From Pseudomonadota bacterium (GTDB lineage Bacteria; Desulfobacterota; Anaeroferrophillalia; Anaeroferrophillales; Anaeroferrophillaceae), in NCBI GenBank assembly GCA_011042595.1, contig DQWO01000097.1:1-11496 (forward strand): a DNA stretch of 11,496 nt, given 5' to 3'. The position numbers were made by a program, and so were the translations under genes. The notes below the pieces were generated by a model. That model made no database searches and was not told where the DNA came from. It saw only the letters and a list, made by a program, of their open reading frames with translations. Positions within the stretch are counted from its first letter, which is position 1, and every line of letters starts with the position of its first letter. Of the stretch, positions 1,816 to 9,925 are shown in pieces.

Positions 1816-1847
1816 AACGCATCAATCAAAAACAGGGATGCGTTTTT
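1816..1847 (+). terminator. Probable intrinsic terminator of the marR-activator transcript
   Basis: AACGCATC at 1816-1823 pairs with GATGCGTT at 1837-1844 over a 13-base loop, and five T residues run through 1843-1847. Read on the plus strand this is a stem followed by a T-run, as expected downstream of the activator gene that ends at 1734. It overlaps the last codons of the convergent minus-strand gene, whose stop is at 1824-1822. The loop is rather long and the stem only 8 bp, so strength is uncertain. Confidence 0.5.
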
Positions 1848-2598
1848 CCTTAAAAGCCAACATTCCCTCTCGGGCCTCTTCCGTACCCCAAAACAAAGTA
1901 AGCATTTCCACACCCATTTCAGCGCTGGAAGAGAGCGTATCATAGTAAATATTATGCATTTTCTTTCCTAGCGTAATCGCTGTAGGACTTTTTTCAATAA
2001 TTTTCTGAGCCCATTTTTCTGCTTCCGCATCAAGGTCTTCGGGAGCTACAACCTTGTTGATCCAACCCATATCTTCGGCTTCACTAGCCTTGTAGAGATC
2101 ACAAAAGTAGGTAATCTCCCGGGAACGTTTTTCTCCTACAAGTATTTGCAGATTTTGCGGAACCCCAAAGGCCGGTATTGAACCTACGCGTGGCCCGGCC
2201 TGACCGAACTTGGCCCTTTCTGAGGCGATAGTAAGATCACAGGCTATATTTACCTCGTTACCTCCACCCACACAAGCCCCATGTACAGCGGCAATTATCG
2301 GTTTTGAAATGCCCCTTAAAGTATCAATCATCTCTTTGAAATTCACAAGATAGGCACGGCGTTCAGCAGCACACCCGTTTGTCAATTCCAGCAATTCCTC
2401 CAAATCACCTCCCGCACACCAGGCCTTGCCGGCCCCTTTAAGGATGACTACCCTCACCAGGGGATCAAGATCAGCTCTTTTTAAACCCGCAATCAAATCT
2501 CTGACTAATTGAAGATTTAAAGCATTGAAAACCTCCGGACGATTGAGTGTAATAGTGCAAACTTGTTCTTTCACATCATAAATAATTGTCGATTCCAT
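1822..2598 (-). CDS. Crotonase-superfamily enoyl-CoA hydratase/hydrolase, MenB/BadI-like
   Basis: This is a single-domain crotonase of 258 residues (MESTIIYDVKEQ start). The first oxyanion-hole segment WCAGGD is near 60-65. The second, GACVGGGNEVNIACDLTIAS near 107-126, carries a Glu (115) at the position of the first hydratase catalytic Glu. The second hydratase Glu is absent: the segment FGQAGPRVGS near 131-140 has Gly there, as in naphthoyl-CoA synthase MenB and the ring-opening hydrolase BadI. The C-terminal FKEKRIPVF also resembles MenB/BadI. It could hydrate an enoyl-CoA or open a cyclic or beta-keto acyl-CoA. I prefer the ATG at 2598: GAGG lies 8 bases upstream, whereas the in-frame GTG at 2607 overlaps that site. 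It is the last gene of the minus-strand cluster, 83 bases after ACAD1. Family is certain; reaction is not. Confidence 0.88.
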   Translation of the reverse strand: MESTIIYDVKEQVCTITLNRPEVFNALNLQLVRDLIAGLKRADLDPLVRVVILKGAGKAWCAGGDLEELLELTNGCAAERRAYLVNFKEMIDTLRGISKPIIAAVHGACVGGGNEVNIACDLTIASERAKFGQAGPRVGSIPAFGVPQNLQILVGEKRSREITYFCDLYKASEAEDMGWINKVVAPEDLDAEAEKWAQKIIEKSPTAITLGKKMHNIYYDTLSSSAEMGVEMLTLFWGTEEAREGMLAFKEKRIPVFD

Positions 2599-2681
2599 AA
2601 ATATCACCTCTCAGATGGTTAAAACTCATTATAAATTGACCTTCTATTTATTGGTCGATTACCGATGGATCATGACCGGAA

Positions 2682-3833
2682 TCAAGAAAGTAGATTCTTG
2701 GCCACAATAACTCTTTGGATCTGATTGGAACCGTCGAACACTTGAATCATCTTCGCATCACGCATCATCCTTTCTACAGGATATTCCTTCATAACCCCAT
2801 AGCCACCCAGAAGTTGCACCGCATCGGTTGTCACTCGCATGGCGACATCGGAAGCGAAGCATTTAGTTGATGAAACCAGACTGCCTCGCAACTTATTGTC
2901 TTCTGATCCGGAATCCATTAAGGCTGTGGTTCGATAAAGAAGCGATCTCGCCGCTTCTGTCTGAATAGCCATATCAGCAAGCATAAATCTTATGGCCTGA
3001 AGTTTGCTGATCGGAGCACCAAACTGAACCCTCTCCTTGGCATAATTAGCCGCATAATCGAGTGCTCCCTGAGCTATACCGACAGCCATGGCACCCGGAC
3101 CATAAGAGCGCATATCGGCCCCTCCTGAAACCAGAACATCCCAGCCTTTTCCAGGTTCACCAATTATATTAGCCTTGGGAACTCTGGCATCCTCAAAGAT
3201 TATTTCCGCCATATCCGAACCCCGCAACCCCAGCTTATCTTCATGTTTACCTACCTTAAATCCGGGTGTGTTCCGGGTATCCACAACAATTGCGGATAAA
3301 CCTTTATGCCTTTCGCCCTCGCCGGTACGTACAAAAACCAGCACAAAATCGGCAATATCTCCGTTCGTCACAAAAATTTTAGTACCGTTAATTATGTAAT
3401 CATCACCATCCAGCACGGCTTTTGTTTGAATTGAAGCCGATTCCGAACCAAAATTTGGTTCCGTCAGGGAAAAGGCGTTTACCTTGTCACCGGAAGACAT
3501 TTTTTTAAAGAATTTATCTTGCAGCTCTGTACTTCCCCATTGTTTCAATATCTGGATGAGCGACTGGGTTACAAACACAATCATAGCCGCAGAGGCATCC
3601 ACTTTGGCCAGCTCTTCTACAGCCATGGCAATCGTTGTGTAAGATGCTCCGATTCCACCATAGGCCTCAGGGACGCCCATCTTCAAAAGACCATTTTGAG
3701 CTAACAGCTTGACCATTTCAGGTGATGAATGGCCGGCAGCATCTGCATCCTCACTTAAAGGAGAAATCTTATCTTTAGCCAACTTTCCAATCATCGCTTT
3801 AATCATTTTTTGTTCATCACTAAAAACTAACAT
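2682..3833 (-). CDS. Acyl-CoA dehydrogenase (ACAD1) with Asp at the catalytic-base position
   Basis: A full-length 383-residue FAD-dependent acyl-CoA dehydrogenase that would oxidise an acyl-CoA to the 2-enoyl-CoA and pass electrons to an electron-transfer flavoprotein. The N-terminal helical domain covers about 1-120. The middle beta-domain carries FSLTEPNFGSES at 121-132 and YIINGTKIFVTNG at 146-158. The C-terminal helical domain has RVQFGAPISKLQAIRFMLAD at 268-287 and LLGGYGVMKEYPVERMMRDA at 341-360. The usual catalytic motif Y-E-G-T-N-Q-I reads F-D-G-S-N-Q-I here, so the base would be Asp367 instead of Glu. Start ATG at 3833 is preceded by GAGAGG at a good distance. It lies 27 bases after HBD1 and upstream of the crotonase gene, in one transcript. 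Substrate cannot be read from sequence; the Asp hints at a non-standard acyl group. Confidence 0.93.
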   Translation of the reverse strand: MLVFSDEQKMIKAMIGKLAKDKISPLSEDADAAGHSSPEMVKLLAQNGLLKMGVPEAYGGIGASYTTIAMAVEELAKVDASAAMIVFVTQSLIQILKQWGSTELQDKFFKKMSSGDKVNAFSLTEPNFGSESASIQTKAVLDGDDYIINGTKIFVTNGDIADFVLVFVRTGEGERHKGLSAIVVDTRNTPGFKVGKHEDKLGLRGSDMAEIIFEDARVPKANIIGEPGKGWDVLVSGGADMRSYGPGAMAVGIAQGALDYAANYAKERVQFGAPISKLQAIRFMLADMAIQTEAARSLLYRTTALMDSGSEDNKLRGSLVSSTKCFASDVAMRVTTDAVQLLGGYGVMKEYPVERMMRDAKMIQVFDGSNQIQRVIVAKNLLS

Positions 3834-3860
3834 TTCAAACCTCTCGTTGATAATTTTATG

Positions 3861-4718
3861 TCATTTGTGGTTGTAACTATAAACCCCTTGACCACTCTTT
3901 CTACCCAAATGACCTGCTTTGACAAGCTTCACTAGCAAGGGGCAAGGTCGATATTTATCACCCAATTCCTGGTGAAATGTCTTCATGCAGGCTAAAAGGA
4001 TATCCAGGCCAAAAGCATCTGCGGCAGCCAGCGGACCTAAAGGAAAACCTAAACCTTTCACACAACTTCTGTCGATCTCTTCGGCTGTAGCAATACTTGT
4101 CTCAAGTGCGAAAAAAGCCTCATTAACCATAGGCAAGTAAAGCCGGTTGATAACAAATCCCGGAAAGTCAGCAACGGTTACAGTTTCCTTGCCGCACTTG
4201 GTCAAGAAGTCGATGACTGTATTATGAGTCGCATCAGAGGTGACCGGGCCTCTGACAACTTCGACCATCGGGGTTAACGCTGCCGGAATCAAAAAGTGGG
4301 TGCCGAGGCACTGTTGTGGACGATTGGTGGCCGCAGCAAGCTCCGCAACCCAGAGGGTCGAAGTGTTACTGGCTAGAATCGTCTTTGAGGGACTGGTTTT
4401 ATCCAGTTTCCGAAAAATATTCTTTTTAACTTCCACATCTTCAAACACTGCTTCAATTACCAAATCGACATCCTCCACAGCCTCTTCAATCATGGTACCG
4501 CTGGTCATATGCGACAAGATCTTTTCACTTGATTCCCGGCCTATCTTACCCTTTTTCTCTTGTCCTTTAAAAAATTTCCGGATGCTGTTCATTCCATTTT
4601 CCACCTGAATGGAATTGACATCTACCATTGCCGTTTGAAAACCTCCACGGGCACAAACAATTCCGATCTGACTCCCCATAGTTCCCATTCCGATAACTGC
4701 TACTTTTTTGATCTCCAT
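3861..4718 (-). CDS. 3-hydroxyacyl-CoA dehydrogenase (HBD1)
   Basis: This 285-residue NAD(P)-dependent dehydrogenase would convert a 3-hydroxyacyl-CoA to the 3-ketoacyl-CoA. The N-terminal Rossmann fold has VAVIGMGTMGSQIG at 6-19 and an acidic VD at 32-33 after the second strand, favouring NAD. The catalytic set is present: Ser117/Asn118 in ASNTST, His141, Glu153 in MVEVV and Asn191 in PGFVINR. The C-terminal dimerisation domain ends with GHLGRKSGQGVYSY. The motif that is usually HFFNP reads HFLIP, so the Asn is lost. Two adjacent ATGs lie at 4721 and 4718. GGAGG at 4730-4726 is 4 bases from the first and 7 from the second, so I choose 4718. The longer in-frame start at 4766 lies inside the upstream repeat and is unlikely. 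A 250-base structured region separates it from ACAD2. Confidence 0.92.
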   Translation of the reverse strand: MEIKKVAVIGMGTMGSQIGIVCARGGFQTAMVDVNSIQVENGMNSIRKFFKGQEKKGKIGRESSEKILSHMTSGTMIEEAVEDVDLVIEAVFEDVEVKKNIFRKLDKTSPSKTILASNTSTLWVAELAAATNRPQQCLGTHFLIPAALTPMVEVVRGPVTSDATHNTVIDFLTKCGKETVTVADFPGFVINRLYLPMVNEAFFALETSIATAEEIDRSCVKGLGFPLGPLAAADAFGLDILLACMKTFHQELGDKYRPCPLLVKLVKAGHLGRKSGQGVYSYNHK

Positions 4719-4972
4719 CATAGAACCTCCGTATTTATAAAACCTAAGGCGGGCTAACGCCCGCAACCCAAATTAAGGTGTCAGGATGTTCCGGCATGGC
4801 TCTCGCTCATTCTCGCCGGCCGTCCATGTCCGGCTTCCGAGGCGTCCGCTGCGAATCACATCATGTGATTCGTTCGGCGGCCAATACCGCTATGAGCCAA
4901 GCCCGAACATCCTGAATATATTCCCGACAATTTCTTGTTTTTTACGACAGCCTTTCAGGAGTAAGGTACTAA
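4704..4972 (-). repeat. Structured inverted-repeat copy A, intra-operon, includes HBD1 leader
   Basis: Read on the minus strand, this 269-base block aligns almost end to end with plus-strand 9630-9925, so the two are inverted copies. It begins at the stop of ACAD2 (TTAG at 4972-4969), runs through the block TAAAAAACAAGAAATTGTCG, a 135-base hairpin-rich core (4781-4915), a small GCGGGC-GTTA-GCCCGC hairpin near 4744-4759 and TTTTATAAATACGGAGG. It ends inside the first codons of HBD1. Compared with copy B it lacks a 28-base stretch after the CTGTC motif. As it lies within the operon it should be transcribed, and it supplies the HBD1 ribosome binding site. Confidence 0.88.
4781..4915 (-). other. 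Hairpin-rich core of repeat copy A; candidate structured RNA
   Basis: Outer arms 4781-4802 and 4894-4915 are 22 bases each and complementary at 20 positions. Inside, CGAATCACA at 4852-4860 pairs with TGTGATTCG at 4864-4872 around a 3-base loop, and GCCGG at 4815-4819 pairs with CCGGC at 4830-4834. The conserved single-stranded-looking pieces between stems (CATAGCGG, CGAGAATGAGC, GCCTCGG on the minus strand) match copy B, while stem sequences differ but still pair. That pattern is typical of a folded RNA or a hairpin-bearing mobile repeat. I do not recognise a named RNA family. It could attenuate, process or stabilise the operon mRNA between ACAD2 and HBD1. Confidence 0.6.
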
Positions 4973-6111
4973 CCAAGTGTTTCTTTGGCAATAACAAGAC
5001 GTTGTATTTCAGAAGTGCCTTCGGTAATTGTAAATAATCTACCGTCACGCCAGAGCCTTTGAATTGGATATTCCTTCATATATCCATAACCGCCATGTAT
5101 CTGCATAGAATCAGCAAGGATTTTCTGAAGCACTTCCGAGGTAAAAAGCTTGACCATAGAAGACTCTTTACGAACCTTTTGTCCCTGATCATACATGCGG
5201 GCAACCCGGAAAGTATAGGAACGCATAATATCGATATTCATCGCTATTTCAGCTAGTTTGAATCTGGTTGCCTGAAATTTAATAATGGGTTTTCCAAATT
5301 GAATCCTCTCCCGGGCATAATCAACACTCAGATCATAGGCTGCCTGGGCCACGCCGGTACAACGGCTACCGTAGGTTATACGTCCCTGGGTAAGGGTGTC
5401 GGCAATCATATCAAACCCTCCTCCCTCTTGTTCACCAATTAAATTTTCGGCGGGCACCCGGCAATCCTCAAAAACCAATTCCCCGGTCTCAATAGAACAG
5501 TTCCCGACTTTATCCAGCTTCCGAGGAACCGAGAATCCCTCCATTCCCTTTTCGACAATAAAAAGGCTGATCCCGGTCCCCCGTTTGTTGATATCTGTAT
5601 AGGCCGCCACAACCACAAAGTCACATATCGGCCCATTGGTAATAAAGGTCTTGGTCCCGTTAATAATGTAGTTGCCTCCGTCACGCACAGCTCGAGTTTT
5701 TATTGATGCGGCATCGGAACCGGAATTAGGTTCGGTCAGGGCAAAAGCACCTATTTTTTCCCCTTTGATTGCGGGAATAAGGTATCTATTTTTTTGCTCC
5801 TCTGTGCCAAATTTAAAGATGGGCTGAGTACTAAGGCCTCCCTGAACCATAAGTGATGCGGCAATCCCACAGTTTACTTTATTGAGTTCTTCGGTCATGA
5901 TACAATCCATGACCTTATCACCACCGCCACCACCCAGCTCCACCGGGTAGCGGGGACATAAAAAACCCAGTAATCCCATCTTTTTGAAAAGCTGTTTTGG
6001 AAAAATATTATTCTCTTCAGCCTCGTCTACCAGCGGCATGATCTCTTTTTGGGCAAAGTTACTGATAGCTTCCTTGAAAAGTACTTGTTCTTCAGTTAAC
6101 TCAAAATTCAT
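4969..6111 (-). CDS. Acyl-CoA dehydrogenase (ACAD2)
   Basis: A complete 380-residue acyl-CoA dehydrogenase. It has the N-terminal helical domain (about 1-115), a beta-domain with [15 protein letters not shown] near 123-137 and [13 protein letters not shown] near 147-159, and a C-terminal domain with [10 protein letters not shown] and [19 protein letters not shown]. The catalytic motif is canonical: TEGTSEIQR near 363-371, with Glu364 as the base, unlike ACAD1. It would introduce a 2,3-double bond into an acyl-CoA, with electrons going to an electron-transfer flavoprotein not encoded here. Its ATG at 6111 lies 2 bases after the stop of the lyase-like gene, and its AGGAGG ribosome binding site is inside the end of that gene, indicating translational coupling. 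Unusual is a run of five Gly in the N-terminal domain ([10 protein letters not shown]). Its stop overlaps the start of repeat copy A. Confidence 0.94.
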
Positions 6112-6113
6112 TC

Positions 6114-7073
6114 TCAGATTCCTCCTGTTGGGTTAGTTAGCTTTAATTTTTTGGGAGCATTAAAAACCCGATCAGTACGGCCGGTTTTAAGGATGTGACC
6201 GGTCAACTCTTTCCCAACTATTTTTTCGGCTGTGGCGACACAATCAAGAAGGCGATCCAAGTCGACCCCAGTCTTGACCCCCATGGATTCAAACATATTA
6301 ACCAGGTCTTCCGTGGGAATGTTCCAAGTTGCCACCTGTTGTTCAGGAGCCCCGAATGGCAAGACACTCATCCCGCCTACAGCGGTATCAAAAATCCTTA
6401 TTCCAGCGTCAAAGGCAGCCATGGCATTGGCCATTCCCATACCCCGGTTGTCATGAAAATGAACTGCGAGATCAGACTTTAAGTCCATTTTCAATAAAGG
6501 CAAAAGTAGTTTCTTGACCTGGACCGGGGTAGCCATGCCGGTACTGTCGACAAATGAAATCTCATTCACGCTCATAAAATCCAATCTGGCTACAAGTTCT
6601 TCAACCTGACAGGCAGAAACCGGCCCCGCATAAGGACAGCCGAAGGCGGTCAGGATATAGGCCCTGACGCCTTTCCCCTGTTCTCGGGCCACATTTATTA
6701 TTGCAGGTATAACTTTATTCATCATAGTCCTTAATGAATATCCAAGGGCCACTTGATTAAACAGGTCACTGGCCGCAACCAGTATCAAAATATCATCAAT
6801 GTCTGTGAGCATGGCCCTGCGACAAGCTACCTCATTAGGGGTAATACCCACATATGAAGTTCCCAACCTTTTCGGCAGCTGCTTAATGACAGCTTCAGCA
6901 TCCTCAATCCGGGGTATAAATCGGGGATGGACAAAAGATACGGCCTCAATTTTTTTAACACCAGCTGCTGATAAAGCATCAATAAAAGAGACCTTCTCTT
7001 CTATTGACACATCATTTGCAGCTAACCTCATACCATCCCTGGGGGCACATTCAACAATTGCAATTTCAGTCAT
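6114..7073 (-). CDS. HMG-CoA lyase-like DRE-TIM protein lacking the catalytic Cys
   Basis: The 319-residue protein has the TIM-barrel fold of hydroxymethylglutaryl-CoA lyases. Metal and active-site residues of the family are visible: Arg12-Asp13 in APRDGM, Glu43 in IEAVSFV, Cys146 in FGCPYAG, Asp176 in SFVDSTGM, and His205/His207 in AVHFHDN. However, the glycine-rich loop that carries the catalytic cysteine in true HMG-CoA lyases (GGCPYA) reads SVLPFGA here, so Leu238 replaces the Cys. The following Asn segment (GASGN) is also changed to GAPEQQ. Known HMG-CoA lyase splits HMG-CoA to acetyl-CoA and acetoacetate; with these changes another CoA-thioester cleavage or condensation is more likely. 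ATG at 7073 has GGGG 7 bases upstream. The gene lies 24 bases after thiolase and 2 before ACAD2, tightly within the operon. Family confident, reaction unknown. Confidence 0.88.
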   Translation of the reverse strand: MTEIAIVECAPRDGMRLAANDVSIEEKVSFIDALSAAGVKKIEAVSFVHPRFIPRIEDAEAVIKQLPKRLGTSYVGITPNEVACRRAMLTDIDDILILVAASDLFNQVALGYSLRTMMNKVIPAIINVAREQGKGVRAYILTAFGCPYAGPVSACQVEELVARLDFMSVNEISFVDSTGMATPVQVKKLLLPLLKMDLKSDLAVHFHDNRGMGMANAMAAFDAGIRIFDTAVGGMSVLPFGAPEQQVATWNIPTEDLVNMFESMGVKTGVDLDRLLDCVATAEKIVGKELTGHILKTGRTDRVFNAPKKLKLTNPTGGI

Positions 7074-7097
7074 TATACTTCCCCATTGAGATAACCA

Positions 7098-8360
7098 TTA
7101 GATTCTTTCGAACACAGCCGCGATTCCAAGTCCACCACCACCGCAGATGGTCTCCAAACCGAAACGATGTTGACACCTTTTCATCTCATGAAGCAGTGTA
7201 ACCATTCGCATAGCACCGGTAGCGCCAATCGGATGACCAAGAGAGATGCCGGAACCATTGATATTGACTTTTTCGACAAAATCCTCATCTTTAATCTTCA
7301 TCAATCTTGCGTCGGCTAAAGCCTGAACCGCAAAAGCCTCTTGAATTTCGAAAAGATCGATTTCGTCTATGGTAATATCTGCCTTCTTGAGTGCTTTCTC
7401 TACCGATGACGGCACTGCCGGATAAGTGAGGGTTGGATCAGCCCCAGCCACAGCACATGACCTGAAGTAGGCCAACGGTTCCAAACCCAGCTCCTGGGCT
7501 TTTTCTTTGCTCATTAAAACCACGGCTGCCGCGCCATCGTTCTCCGTCGACGAATTACCAGCCGTACAGACACCGCCGGGATATACCGGTAATAGCCGGG
7601 CAAGTTTTTCTAAAGAAATATTCCGGCGAGGGGTTTCATCTTCAGCAAAAATTAACGGTTCACCTTTTTTTTGGGGAATCGGAACCGAGACAATTTCATC
7701 TTTAAATTTACCTGAATCAATTGCAGCTATGGCTTTGAGGTGGCTGTTATAGGACCATTCGTCAGCCTCACGCCGCGAAATATTCTCGTTTTTAGCCGCC
7801 GCCTCAGCCCAAGTCATCATGGAATTTAATTCCCCACATCTTTCAATTGGTTGAGACATAACCCGAGCCCGTTGTATTCTATCGTAGATGGGTAAACCCC
7901 ACATGGAAAGCGCGCCATGCCCCTTAGGCATAACACCCCATTTGTCGTCAACCTTGCCGCCCAAACCCCACTTTATATGTCCTGGGATATAAAGTTCGGC
8001 CTGACTCAGGCTGTCCATCCCGCCGGCTACCACAATATCGGCGTTGTCGGTCTGAATTTTCATAACACCGAAGAATATGGCGTCCATACCCGAACAACAC
8101 CTGCGATCCAAAGTTACTCCAGGAACTTCATAGGGCCATCCCGCCTCCAGCAAAGCCATACGTGCGGCATTTGCACATTCACCATTCTGATAAGACTGGC
8201 CCATAATCACATCGTCTACAAGTTCAGGTTCTATTTTTGCTTTTTTAAGGACTTCGCTCAAAACCAGACTACCCAATTTGTACACGGGGATATCACGGAG
8301 GGTCCCACCATATCCCCCAATCGGGGTACGCATACCACTGACAATAACCACTTCTTTCAT
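7098..8360 (-). CDS. Acetyl-CoA acyltransferase (thiolase) with enlarged loop region
   Basis: A 420-residue thiolase for the last beta-oxidation step, CoA-dependent cleavage of a 3-ketoacyl-CoA. The nucleophilic Cys88 is in LDRRCCSGMDAI, the QEAFAVQ motif (usually NEAFA) is at 340-346, the active-site His375 is in GISLGHPIGATGA, and the proton-shuttle Cys406 is in ETICGGGGLG. All catalytic positions are thus intact. The protein is some 20-30 residues longer than usual thiolases, the extra length lying in the substrate-covering loop domain at about 140-190. The family motif M-G-M-T-A-E there reads S-M-M-T-W-A-E. The ATG at 8360 has AGGAGG 7 bases upstream. It is second in the operon, 58 bases after HBD2 and 24 before the lyase-like gene. 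The altered loop suggests an acyl group other than a simple straight chain, by inference. Confidence 0.94.
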   Translation of the reverse strand: MKEVVIVSGMRTPIGGYGGTLRDIPVYKLGSLVLSEVLKKAKIEPELVDDVIMGQSYQNGECANAARMALLEAGWPYEVPGVTLDRRCCSGMDAIFFGVMKIQTDNADIVVAGGMDSLSQAELYIPGHIKWGLGGKVDDKWGVMPKGHGALSMWGLPIYDRIQRARVMSQPIERCGELNSMMTWAEAAAKNENISRREADEWSYNSHLKAIAAIDSGKFKDEIVSVPIPQKKGEPLIFAEDETPRRNISLEKLARLLPVYPGGVCTAGNSSTENDGAAAVVLMSKEKAQELGLEPLAYFRSCAVAGADPTLTYPAVPSSVEKALKKADITIDEIDLFEIQEAFAVQALADARLMKIKDEDFVEKVNINGSGISLGHPIGATGAMRMVTLLHEMKRCQHRFGLETICGGGGLGIAAVFERI

Positions 8361-8418
8361 TACTCGACCTCCTGATTAAAAAATTGGTTAATAATCCGCT
8401 TTTTTTGACCTTTCCTGT

Positions 8419-9285
8419 TTAACTGATTTTCTTCTTGCTGTAGACATACCAACCATGACCGGTCTTGCGCCCTAACTGGCCCGCCTTTACCTTACGTCTC
8501 AATAATTGCGGGGGATAATAACGGATATCCTGACTCTCTTCATAAATTGCACTCAGACCGTTGAAGGAAACATCCAGGCCCACCATGTCACCGGTCTCAA
8601 AAGGGCCCATCTTTCTGCCAAAACCCAGCTTAACCCCAGTATCTATCTCTTCAACTGTTCCAACACCCTGTTCCAGTAAACGAATAGCTTCAACATAGCC
8701 CACTAAATTGATCCGGTTCAGCAAAAACCCCGGGACATCACTTTCAACACGAACGGATTCTTTCCCCAATTTTTTAACAAACTCAACACCTGTCTGCATG
8801 GTCTCTTCCGAGGTATTCATTCCCTTGATAACCTCTACGACCTGCATCATGGGAACCGGACTAAAAAAATGGAGACCCAGCACCTTTTCCGGACGATTCG
8901 TAACTGCCGCAAGTTCAGTTGTAGGTATGGCGGAACTATTGCTGGCTAAATAAGCATCCGGCCTACAGACTTCATCAAGTTTTTTAAAGATCTTCTGTTT
9001 TAAATCCAACCGCTCAAAAACAGCTTCAATTGCGAGATCAACCTCGTTAGCTCTGGAAAAGTCCGTAGCCGTTTGAATGCGTCCTAATATAGAATTCTTG
9101 TCTTCAGATAGTTTTCCTTTCTCAATCAGCTTGCCTACCGACCAAGCGATATTTTCCATTCCCCGATTCAGGGCCTTTTGCTCAACGTCATTTATAATCA
9201 CCTGAATTCCGGACTGGGCACAGACCTGGGCAATCCCGCAGCCCATCAATCCCCCACCGACAATAAAAACCTTACTAATTTCCAT
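8419..9285 (-). CDS. 3-hydroxyacyl-CoA dehydrogenase (HBD2), first gene of the operon
   Basis: A 288-residue 3-hydroxyacyl-CoA dehydrogenase with an N-terminal NAD-binding Rossmann fold (VFIVGGGLMGCGIA at 6-19, Asp33 after strand 2). Catalytic residues are present: Ser115-Asn116 in ASNSSAI, His139 in HFFSP, Glu151 in VVEVI and Asn190 in PGFLLNR. The C-terminal domain has KMGPFETGDMVGLDV and ends GQLGRKTGHGWYVY. It is a paralogue of HBD1 but clearly diverged from it, suggesting two different hydroxyacyl-CoA intermediates in the pathway. The start ATG at 9285 is preceded by GGAGG at 9297-9293, 7 bases away. It is promoter-proximal: a sigma-54 promoter lies about 60-75 bases upstream. The very basic tail (SKKKIS) is normal for the family. 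Confidence 0.94.
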   Translation of the reverse strand: MEISKVFIVGGGLMGCGIAQVCAQSGIQVIINDVEQKALNRGMENIAWSVGKLIEKGKLSEDKNSILGRIQTATDFSRANEVDLAIEAVFERLDLKQKIFKKLDEVCRPDAYLASNSSAIPTTELAAVTNRPEKVLGLHFFSPVPMMQVVEVIKGMNTSEETMQTGVEFVKKLGKESVRVESDVPGFLLNRINLVGYVEAIRLLEQGVGTVEEIDTGVKLGFGRKMGPFETGDMVGLDVSFNGLSAIYEESQDIRYYPPQLLRRKVKAGQLGRKTGHGWYVYSKKKIS

Positions 9286-9345
9286 TGTGAAACCTCCATC
9301 AAGACGAAATTTTATCTGATTTACCTAAATCTATCCAAATATCTT

Positions 9346-9361
9346 AGCAACAAATAAGCCA
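9346..9361 (-). promoter_or_regulatory. Sigma-54 (-24/-12) promoter of the catabolic operon
   Basis: On the minus strand, TGGCTTATTTGTTGCT (9361 down to 9346) matches the sigma-54 consensus TGGCAC-N5-TTGCW at the key TGGC and TTGCT blocks with exact GG-N10-GC spacing. Transcription would start near 9335, giving a leader of about 50 bases before HBD2. Two palindromic sites lie 70-250 bases farther upstream, where activator sites are expected, and an enhancer-binding protein gene is in the same window. Confidence 0.75.
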
Positions 9362-9432
9362 TATAGATAAGCATCTGTTTTTATAGTGTTTTTCGAAAAA
9401 TATAAGTCCGTAAAAAAAATCAAGCCGAAATG

Positions 9433-9448
9433 TGTTTATTTAGTAGAC
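9433..9448. promoter_or_regulatory. Candidate upstream activator site 1
   Basis: TGTTTATTTAGTAGAC matches site 2 (9579-9594) at 13 of 16 positions. Its centre lies about 105 bases upstream of the predicted sigma-54 start near 9335. The right half GTAGAC is perfect; the left half is degenerate, so it could be a weaker site. Binding by the activator at 616-1734 is inference. Confidence 0.45.
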
Positions 9449-9578
9449 ACGGAGAGTGCCACAGAAAAAGATATGGGGGGAGGGTGGTGAAATCAAATAA
9501 CTGGCTGAAAAACAGCGCAAACGCCCTTCTCACGCCCTAATTATGTATTTACATCTAATTTCCCATCTCCATCACTGT

Positions 9579-9594
9579 TGTCTACATAGTAGAC
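9579..9594. promoter_or_regulatory. Candidate upstream activator site 2 (perfect palindrome)
   Basis: GTCTACATAGTAGAC at 9580-9594 is a perfect inverted repeat of 6-base arms around a 3-base centre. It lies about 250 bases upstream of the predicted sigma-54 start and shares sequence with site 1, 146 bases away. Fis-type DNA-binding domains of sigma-54 activators bind such dyads as dimers. A lone GTAGAC half-site also occurs at 9935-9940, which may be chance. Confidence 0.5.
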
Positions 9595-9713
9595 GAACAC
9601 CCTCCTGACTGGTCTGAAGATGAGGTTCTTTAGTGCCTTACGCCCGAAAGGCTGTCACTCTTTTCAGTACTCCCTTGAGGGGTGTAAAAAACAAGAAATT
9701 GTCGGAAATACAT

Positions 9714-9848
9714 CCAGGATGTTCGGGCTTGACTCATAGCGGCATTGGGTGCCGAACGAATCACCACGACGGTGATTCGCGGCACACACCTCGGAGTGGC
9801 ACACGATGTGCCGCGAGAATGAGCAAGAGCCATGCCGGAACATCCTGA
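9714..9848 (+). other. Hairpin-rich core of repeat copy B; candidate structured RNA
   Basis: Outer arms 9714-9735 and 9827-9848 are complementary at 18 of 22 positions. A long inner hairpin pairs GTGCCG (9749-9754) plus CGAATCACC (9757-9765) with GGTGATTCG (9771-9779) plus CGGCAC (9780-9785), leaving a 2-base bulge and a 5-base loop. A second hairpin pairs 9796-9803 with 9807-9814 around CGA. The same architecture in copy A uses different stem bases, for example the A-T pair next to the first loop in A is C-G here. Core length is 135 bases in both copies. Whether copy B is transcribed is unknown. Confidence 0.6.
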
Positions 9849-9897
9849 TACCTTAATTTTGGTTACGGGTGTCAAGCCCGCCTTGGGTTTTATAAAT

Positions 9898-9925
9898 ACG
9901 GAGGTTTTATGATGTAATCAAAAAA
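9898..9925 (+). pseudogene. Relic of a duplicated HBD1 start (RBS, ATG ATG, then stop)
   Basis: ACGGAGG and ATGATG at 9909-9914 reproduce the HBD1 leader and double start at 4732-4716. The third codon is TAA (9915-9917), and one base is missing relative to HBD1, after which only the ATCAAAAAA string still matches. No hydroxyacyl-CoA dehydrogenase sequence follows. This is best read as the surviving 5' edge of a duplicated gene or of a repeat that copied the gene edge. Confidence 0.6.

Follow-up and report, generated by a model that had tools for sequence, protein, structure and literature searches.

What is the structured sequence that occurs in two inverted copies on contig DQWO01000097.1 (assembly GCA_011042595.1, a member of the Anaeroferrophillaceae in the Desulfobacterota), and what keeps its fold? 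We analysed the whole 11,496-nt stretch, here called the window, together with the genome that holds it (G000; 1.85 Mb in 370 contigs, 82% complete) and other genomes of the phylum. The first-pass annotation had placed copy A on the minus strand (4972-4704) and copy B on the plus strand (9630-9925), and an inverted-repeat search and alignment recover both at these positions, as pairs of 81, 78, 51 and 27 nt with 83-91% complementarity. Alignment and folding also agree with its description of two 135-nt cores with outer arms and hairpins. The compensating stem changes that it reported are real: the letters of hairpin P3 differ between the copies while pairing is kept, with one mismatch in A, and the pair that closes the tip of hairpin P2 is A-T in A, where the loop has 3 nt, and C-G in B, where it has 5 nt. 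Outside the cores, A and B are copies of one mobile element of about 225-253 nt. We show here that they are two insertions of a short non-autonomous element, type F1, from a high-copy family, and we propose that the core is, on balance, probably a module that a trans-acting factor recognises in the form of a folded single strand (RNA or single-stranded DNA) and that travels in unrelated non-autonomous elements.

One of the natures first suggested for the repeat was a hairpin-carrying non-autonomous mobile repeat, and this is borne out by empty sites, target duplications and element ends. Type F1 lacks inverted terminal repeats; it starts after TTAG with a sequence resembling TGCCTTACTCCTGAAAGGCTGTC, and its right end is GCGGGC-loop-GCCCGC-N-TTRG. 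Right ends read TTAG in 20 copies and TTGG in eight, which together make up 28 of 31 pattern hits; the search script required the N-TT[A/G]G form, which the other three lack. The right-end hairpin GCGGGC/GCCCGC or a variant, likewise required by the script, is present in all 28, and a 26-nt stretch with the left hairpin is missing in 15 of them, across six genomes or records. On the left, TTAG flanks 25 of the 27 copies with both ends, including every TTGG-ended copy (8/8). Because TTGG right ends go with TTAG on the left, the left four letters are the target, the right four are the element's own and no duplication is made, as an IS200/IS605-like mode of insertion would give. Insertion of the IS200/IS605 type produces no target duplication.

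Elements of types F2 and F3 flank the same core with terminal repeats, CTCAACTTTCTGA / TCAGAAAGTTGAG, and are mostly 213-217 bp long (range 174-236; 20 pairs of terminal inverted repeats (TIRs) on G000 contigs, one core each). TIR pairs were collected from loci of G000 and the related genomes G001 and G002 with at most two mismatches per end, which gave 62 pairs, one right end being counted twice; in the search of G000 contigs that gave the 20 pairs, 44 single TIR hits were left unpaired by the script. An exact flanking repeat of 5-8 bp is present in 37 of the 62 pairs, against about 0.5 expected with shuffled partners, and its length is 7 bp in 22, 6 bp in 13, and 5 and 8 bp in one each. Comparison of homologous loci between genomes revealed clean empty sites at four of the six loci read. 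Two are of the TIR type (L022/L180 and L080/L141), where the empty genome has a single diverged counterpart of the target, and a third (L058/L171) involves one TIR-type insertion and a nearby one with other flanks. The fourth is the sole F1 empty site: TTTTAG-TTC in L098 becomes TTTAG-element-TTC in L181. L030/L184 and L048/L188 show an additional rearrangement and were left out of the count. The five relatives compared hold no close counterpart of the operon around copy A (the best match, to one gene, is 44% identical), and there is therefore no empty site for copy A itself.

What do these different elements share? Definitions of small mobile repeats usually rest on their ends; in this family the best-conserved part is an internal folded core. 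By eye, homology between F1 and F2/F3 reaches about 10-15 nt past the core on each side. In G000 the core subtype mostly follows the element type, with exceptions: copy A joins F1 ends to an F2-like core and L077 joins an F3 left end to an F1 right end, so cores or ends have been exchanged between element types. In other families of the phylum the core is flanked by other sequences. By eye, distant copies in G209 (L335-L338) and G304 (L328-L333) have other apparent terminal repeats (CGTCAAAGTC..GACTTTGACG; AACCTGAATTGAGC..). A core subtype of about 97 nt, with parts of P2 and P3 fused by deletion, was seen at seven fetched places in G002 (L298-L304), mostly with F1 flanks.

The core folds into a three-way junction made of a closing stem, P1, and the hairpins P2 and P3. 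All four strands of A and B fold with z-scores of -6.4 to -7.0 against dinucleotide shuffles, none of 200 shuffles being equal; since every strand folds well, A and B alone cannot tell which strand folds. Four copies, from G004, G252, G304 and G209, reach -6.9 to -11.9. In 32 G000 copies under a hand-drawn junction, 96.9% of cells are paired, against 92.6% after shuffling (0/500 as high) and at most 44.7% after sliding, and the covariation score is 0.150 against 0.076 shuffled (0/500). Two of the five measures separate less sharply: nine pairs with two-sided change were matched by 14 of 500 shuffles and 25 further pair types by 164 of 500. We regard the distant copies as the stronger test. A wide alignment of 57 sequences (56 distinct) from 39 sources, hand-chosen from those fetched and fitted to the covariance model, towards which it leans, has 95.0% of 2419 cells paired against 72.2% shuffled, two-sided change in 41 of 46 pairs (28.3 shuffled) and 530 two-sided cells (131 shuffled). 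Its covariation score of 0.575 exceeds both the shuffled value of 0.163 (sd 0.007) and those obtained by sliding by 1-3 columns (at most 0.099). Covariation, a check that the annotation had proposed, thus lies above shuffled and slid controls on our own score.

In 21 matches fetched from the distant genomes the letters of P1, P2 and P3 are mostly unlike those of the window and still paired, and the junction letters are the same. Letters conserved at or above 90% over the 57 sequences, from four families, lie in CGG..T (J1/2), CCTCG.AG (before P3), CA..A.G (P3 tip) and GAGAATGAG (J3/1). The connecting pieces that the annotation called nearly fixed are well conserved over 55 copies, AGCGG and GAGAATGAG best. 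Its reading of the repeat as the signature of a selected fold is supported by the cross-family covariation and the fixed unpaired motifs, with the proviso that copying from arm to arm could explain part of the pairing.

How much of it might such copying explain? Arms could be copied from each other by template switching and copies homogenised by gene conversion, with no selection involved. Private changes in the genus of G000 (2537 cells) comprise 28 one-sided transitions (18 to G-U and 10 to A-C), six transversions and seven two-sided changes; all seven of the last are standard pairs, as arm copying would produce, and the locus-specific, often perfect arms of G004 described below are also expected from it. 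The excess of G-U over A-C in imperfect pairs, moreover, is weak. Counted as distinct events it is 67 versus 43 in 113 copies (p 0.028) and 49 versus 30 in a wider set (p 0.042), and it is absent when cells are counted (39 versus 42 in G000, 37 versus 38 in G001). Arm copying cannot, however, maintain unpaired letters, and the four motifs above contain unpaired letters kept at 90% or more; we consider a purely mutational origin of the pairing improbable. The excess in distinct events gives weak support to folding of the strand as read, and the core may act as a structured non-coding RNA, as the annotation had also suggested, or as single-stranded DNA.

How widespread is the core? The annotation had asked for further copies in the host genome, and these are plentiful. 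A search of G000 with the B core gave at least 40 strong matches (the best 40 of 166 candidates). The P2-hairpin pattern AACGAATCACN{0,12}GTGATTCG has 78 exact matches in G000 at 77 places, one being read on both strands, and none for the reversed control. At least 60 nt of core is present in 98 copies on 80 G000 contigs plus the window (570 kb), and many G000 contigs terminate within a copy. A covariance model, R1, built from 32 copies, gave 118 matches in G000 at E<=1e-3, 127 in G001, 53 in G002, 28 in G004 and five in G005; at most 150 candidates were scored per genome, and the counts include some antisense readings and pieces at contig ends. At E<=0.01, G002 has 57 matches (53 places after four antisense ones are dropped) and G004 has 30 (29 places).

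R1 found nothing in the order's other family (16 genomes). Across the phylum (395 genomes, strict filters, at most eight candidates scored per genome, E<=1e-6) nine genomes were positive: five family members and G209, G252, G304 and G363, which belong to three further families, G209 and G252 being of one genus. Outside the family, three genomes of two families hold several copies each and the third family a single match. An exact pattern scan of named genomes returned 44 stretches, 27 from GMC6.concoct.48_sub, three from WB1_Bin_44 and 14 from elsewhere. Applied to the 17 stretches outside GMC6.concoct.48_sub, R1 upheld cores in WB1_Bin_44, in Desulfobulbaceae AUK272 and bin10054 and in Desulfobacca sp. 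4484_104; pattern matches in 11 other named organisms contained no core by R1 and were taken as chance. Plasmid and phage collections gave no match by distant blastn with core B, and the exact pattern was unmatched in viral contigs. The annotation recognised no named family, and the window and eight loci of related and distant copies indeed have no Rfam match at E<=1; literature searches found no title or abstract opening that describes this repeat.

Based on these observations, we propose the following model. A trans-acting factor, from either the host or the mobile machinery, would recognise the core in its folded, single-stranded form, and the elements that persist and spread would be those whose core is functional. 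A core that recurs with different ends in four bacterial families, with fixed unpaired letters and free stems, points to such a trans-acting partner. We also put forward, more tentatively, that the core represents a class of structured nucleic acid without a prior name and scattered over the phylum: a module of unrelated non-autonomous transposons that would be identified through its junction motifs and not its stems and would reside, in both orientations, at dozens of places in each genome, with an outer stem that can drift freely as long as pairing is kept, as in G004. The family offers a direct way to test if bacterial mini-transposons bear structured cargo which aids their survival or is taken over by the host.

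Several observations weigh against this model. Searches of G000, G001 and G002 found no autonomous partner element. Y1 transposase matches number none in G000 (82% complete, as stated), eight in G001 (seven above the cut-off) and one in G002; eight of these nine loci were compared, and none of the eight had an F1 end, F2 element or core. In G001, two tandem TIR copies are followed by a broken open reading frame (ORF; L292, 2221-2848), which may be what is left of the parent transposase; its two pieces had no Pfam or NCBIfam match above chance and none in plasmids. The 56 neighbouring ORFs scanned hold no shared partner: their families are ordinary and diverse, none of the 25 families listed occurring in more than three of the 56. 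G003, one of five family members, has no R1 match at E<=1e-3. The core is the outer end of neither element type, and we infer its importance for movement. Finally, the copies of G004, without TIR or common flank, would fit old residents better than active elements.

Those G004 copies deserve a closer look. They have neither TIR nor shared flank, except L315, whose right flank is F2-like. In 22 of the 23 copies, the 22-nt left arms share a mean identity of 43%, and the arms pair with their own partners at a mean of -39.7 kcal/mol and with arms from other loci at -19.5; in G000, G001 and G002 the arms are 85-89% identical and the difference between own and other is 1.4 to 4.2 kcal/mol. This duplex test is independent of the model-fitted alignment. 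The apical part of the G004 core is far less variable than the outer stem. Because the weak arm consensus, AAGCTGTCRGGG...GGTTC, resembles the arms of the unusual copies L171:7836 and L307 (G001 and G002), we infer that the G004 stems probably diverged from a common stem with pairing retained and were not acquired from the target. Insertion into a hairpin tip was considered as a source of the stems and rejected: the arm consensus AAGCTGTCRG has 30 hits versus 12 for a control, and of 17 of these loci, each with a plus-strand hit and inspected individually, three are core copies and 14 have no nearby core or evident palindrome family. By eye, no pre-existing stem is seen in the empty sites that correspond to the F1, TIR-type and L171 insertions.

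Could the host rather than the element be keeping the core? The core would then have come by transposition and now be maintained at many loci for a host function, as RNA or as an orientation-independent DNA hairpin. The TIR-free G004 copies, with their different yet paired outer stems and much less variable apical part, are in line with this, as are the seven paired private changes. We compared core with flank in 57 of 69 copies of G000, 34 of 35 of G001 and 14 of 21 of G002, dropping copies with too little flank. For flank identities of >0.9, 0.8-0.9, 0.7-0.8, 0.6-0.7 and <0.6, mean core identity is 0.973, 0.945, 0.948 (10 copies), 0.916 and 0.915 in G000, and 0.969, 0.978, 0.977 (eight copies), 0.987 and 0.925 in G001. 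In G002 it is 0.969 (0.8-0.9, one copy), 0.958 (0.6-0.7, six copies) and 0.964 (<0.6, seven copies, flank at background). Background flank identity has a mean of 0.449 and a 95th percentile of 0.608, so the lowest class may include other element types. High core identity in spite of end decay appears to favour either constraint on the core or homogenisation. One relic common to G000 and G001, lacking the left arm, differs between them at three positions in 78 nt of core, where there is also a 2-nt gap, and at 12 positions in 219 nt of flank; at this one locus a dead core looks no better preserved than its flank.

Other features of the same data speak against retention by the host. The copies of G001 and G002 were for the most part those ranked highest by the model, and most G000 contigs came from the exact hairpin match, a sampling that under-represents decayed cores. 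Core identity in G000 does drop with flank decay, from 0.973 to 0.915, with single copies down to 0.74, and some elements located through their TIRs have a deleted or truncated core. Gene conversion is an alternative source of core uniformity, and the private one-sided transitions are only weakly biased towards G-U. In the first 111 rows of the locus comparison, six G004 loci have flanks homologous to fetched G000 contigs, and at three of them an element or relic occupies the corresponding gap; most of these contigs had been picked because they hold elements, and we therefore claim no orthologous retention between genera. We think that recognition of the folded strand is the most likely role of the core and that retention by the host, although rather unlikely, is its main rival.

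The annotation had further suggested an mRNA processing element, and a role in the processing or stability of messages between operon genes is the reading that the position of copy A brings to mind, sense-oriented in the minus-strand gap between an acyl-CoA dehydrogenase and a 3-hydroxyacyl-CoA dehydrogenase gene. The family as a whole gives no support to this reading. A simple ORF finder places 16 of 148 copies within an ORF of at least 100 amino acids and the others outside, at median distances of 41-84 nt from the next ORFs. Between co-directional genes, sense and antisense copies are about equal: 15 versus 17 in G000 (69 copies), 14 versus 8 in G001 (35), 3 versus 1 in G002 (21), 5 versus 6 in G004 (23) and 9 versus 8 in the other families (21 copies, 19 of them flanked by a neighbour on each side). 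Neighbouring genes are, as noted, diverse, and we give an mRNA element very little credence.

How do these elements relate to known systems? F2 and F3 resemble miniature inverted-repeat transposable elements (MITEs) in their usual length of 213-217 bp, their TIRs, their target site duplications of 6-7 bp, of which the empty sites have a single counterpart, their lack of a gene and their high copy number. They differ from MITEs in the conserved three-way-junction core, common to an element type with different ends, and the one candidate trace of a parent transposase is the broken ORF in L292. F1 resembles the palindrome-associated transposable elements (PATEs), non-autonomous and IS200/IS605-like, as far as the consulted sections of PMC3119063 describe them: it has no terminal inverted repeat, inserts 3' of a fixed tetranucleotide target without duplication, and carries a palindrome close to its right end, with another close to the left end in some copies. 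Unlike PATEs as presented in those sections, 15 of 28 F1 copies are without the left palindrome region, the core has no counterpart and no Y1 gene with F1 ends was found.

Repetitive extragenic palindromic sequences (REPs) and REPINs, which go with RAYT transposases, are likewise extragenic, high-copy, palindromic and non-autonomous according to the excerpt of PMC3116915. REPs are palindromes of 20-40 bp (PMC3733652, abstract-level text); the core, in contrast, is branched, measures 135 nt, has fixed junction motifs and lies inside larger elements. The REPIN arrangement of paired 20-40-nt REPs beside a RAYT gene was not seen, eight compared Y1 loci holding no core and no F1 or F2 element. REP-like palindromes, as we term them, are in fact nested within cores of G001: many TIR elements among 20 loci (L278-L297) contain short palindromes (GGGGACAG..CTGTCCCC and others), at recurrent core loop positions and in varying combinations. 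ERIC and RU elements are, by description, of similar size, intergenic and MITE-like, and the portion of PMC2759123 available mentions neither cross-family covariation nor a core common to several element types. Integron attC sites were rejected by reasoning, as the base before the left TTAG is variable and the window copies lie outside any cassette array. Protein coding by the cores was also rejected, A and B carrying 2-nt indels within them.

Features of copies A and B in the window, with the basis of each assignment
Feature	Positions	Strand	Basis
Copy A, complete type F1 element, 225 nt, short left end, terminal TTAG at 4747-4744	4744-4968	-	F1 end comparison (28 copies whose right end is defined); an empty site in a relative, for a different copy
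Target TTAG of copy A, supplied by the stop codon (TAG) of the acyl-CoA dehydrogenase gene (4969-6111, minus)	4969-4972	-	Sequence and ORF table; F1 end comparison
Copy A, 135-nt three-way-junction core	4781-4915	-	Folding; R1 score 122.3 bits
Copy A, hairpin P2 (CGAATCACA/TGTGATTCG)	4843-4883	-	Folding
Copy A, hairpin P3, base CTC/GAG	4812-4841	-	Folding
Target TTAG of copy B	9630-9633	+	F1 end comparison
Copy B, complete type F1 element, 253 nt, right end TTGG	9634-9886	+	F1 end comparison
Copy B, 135-nt three-way-junction core; P1 arms 9716-9735 and 9827-9846	9714-9848	+	Folding; R1 score 157.8 bits
Copy B, hairpin P2	9746-9788	+	Structure alignment of copies
Copy B, hairpin P3, base CTC/GAG, GGA bulge	9790-9817	+	Structure alignment of copies
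Stretch past the end of element B, like the downstream flank of A (ribosome binding site and first codons of a 3-hydroxyacyl-CoA dehydrogenase gene)	9887-9925	+	Alignment; inverted repeat

The window also presents an operon-like run of fatty-acid degradation genes at 1822-9285 (enoyl-CoA hydratase, acyl-CoA dehydrogenases, hydroxyacyl-CoA dehydrogenases, a lyase and a thiolase), named from reading the translations, with no family scan behind them. Copy B lies between another 3-hydroxyacyl-CoA dehydrogenase gene (minus) and a TetR-type gene (plus). About 40-60 nt of the downstream flank of copy A (4743-4704), including the start codon, recur past the right end of copy B despite the different core subtypes of the two copies; transduction of 3' flanking DNA or duplication of a segment are possible origins of this shared stretch.

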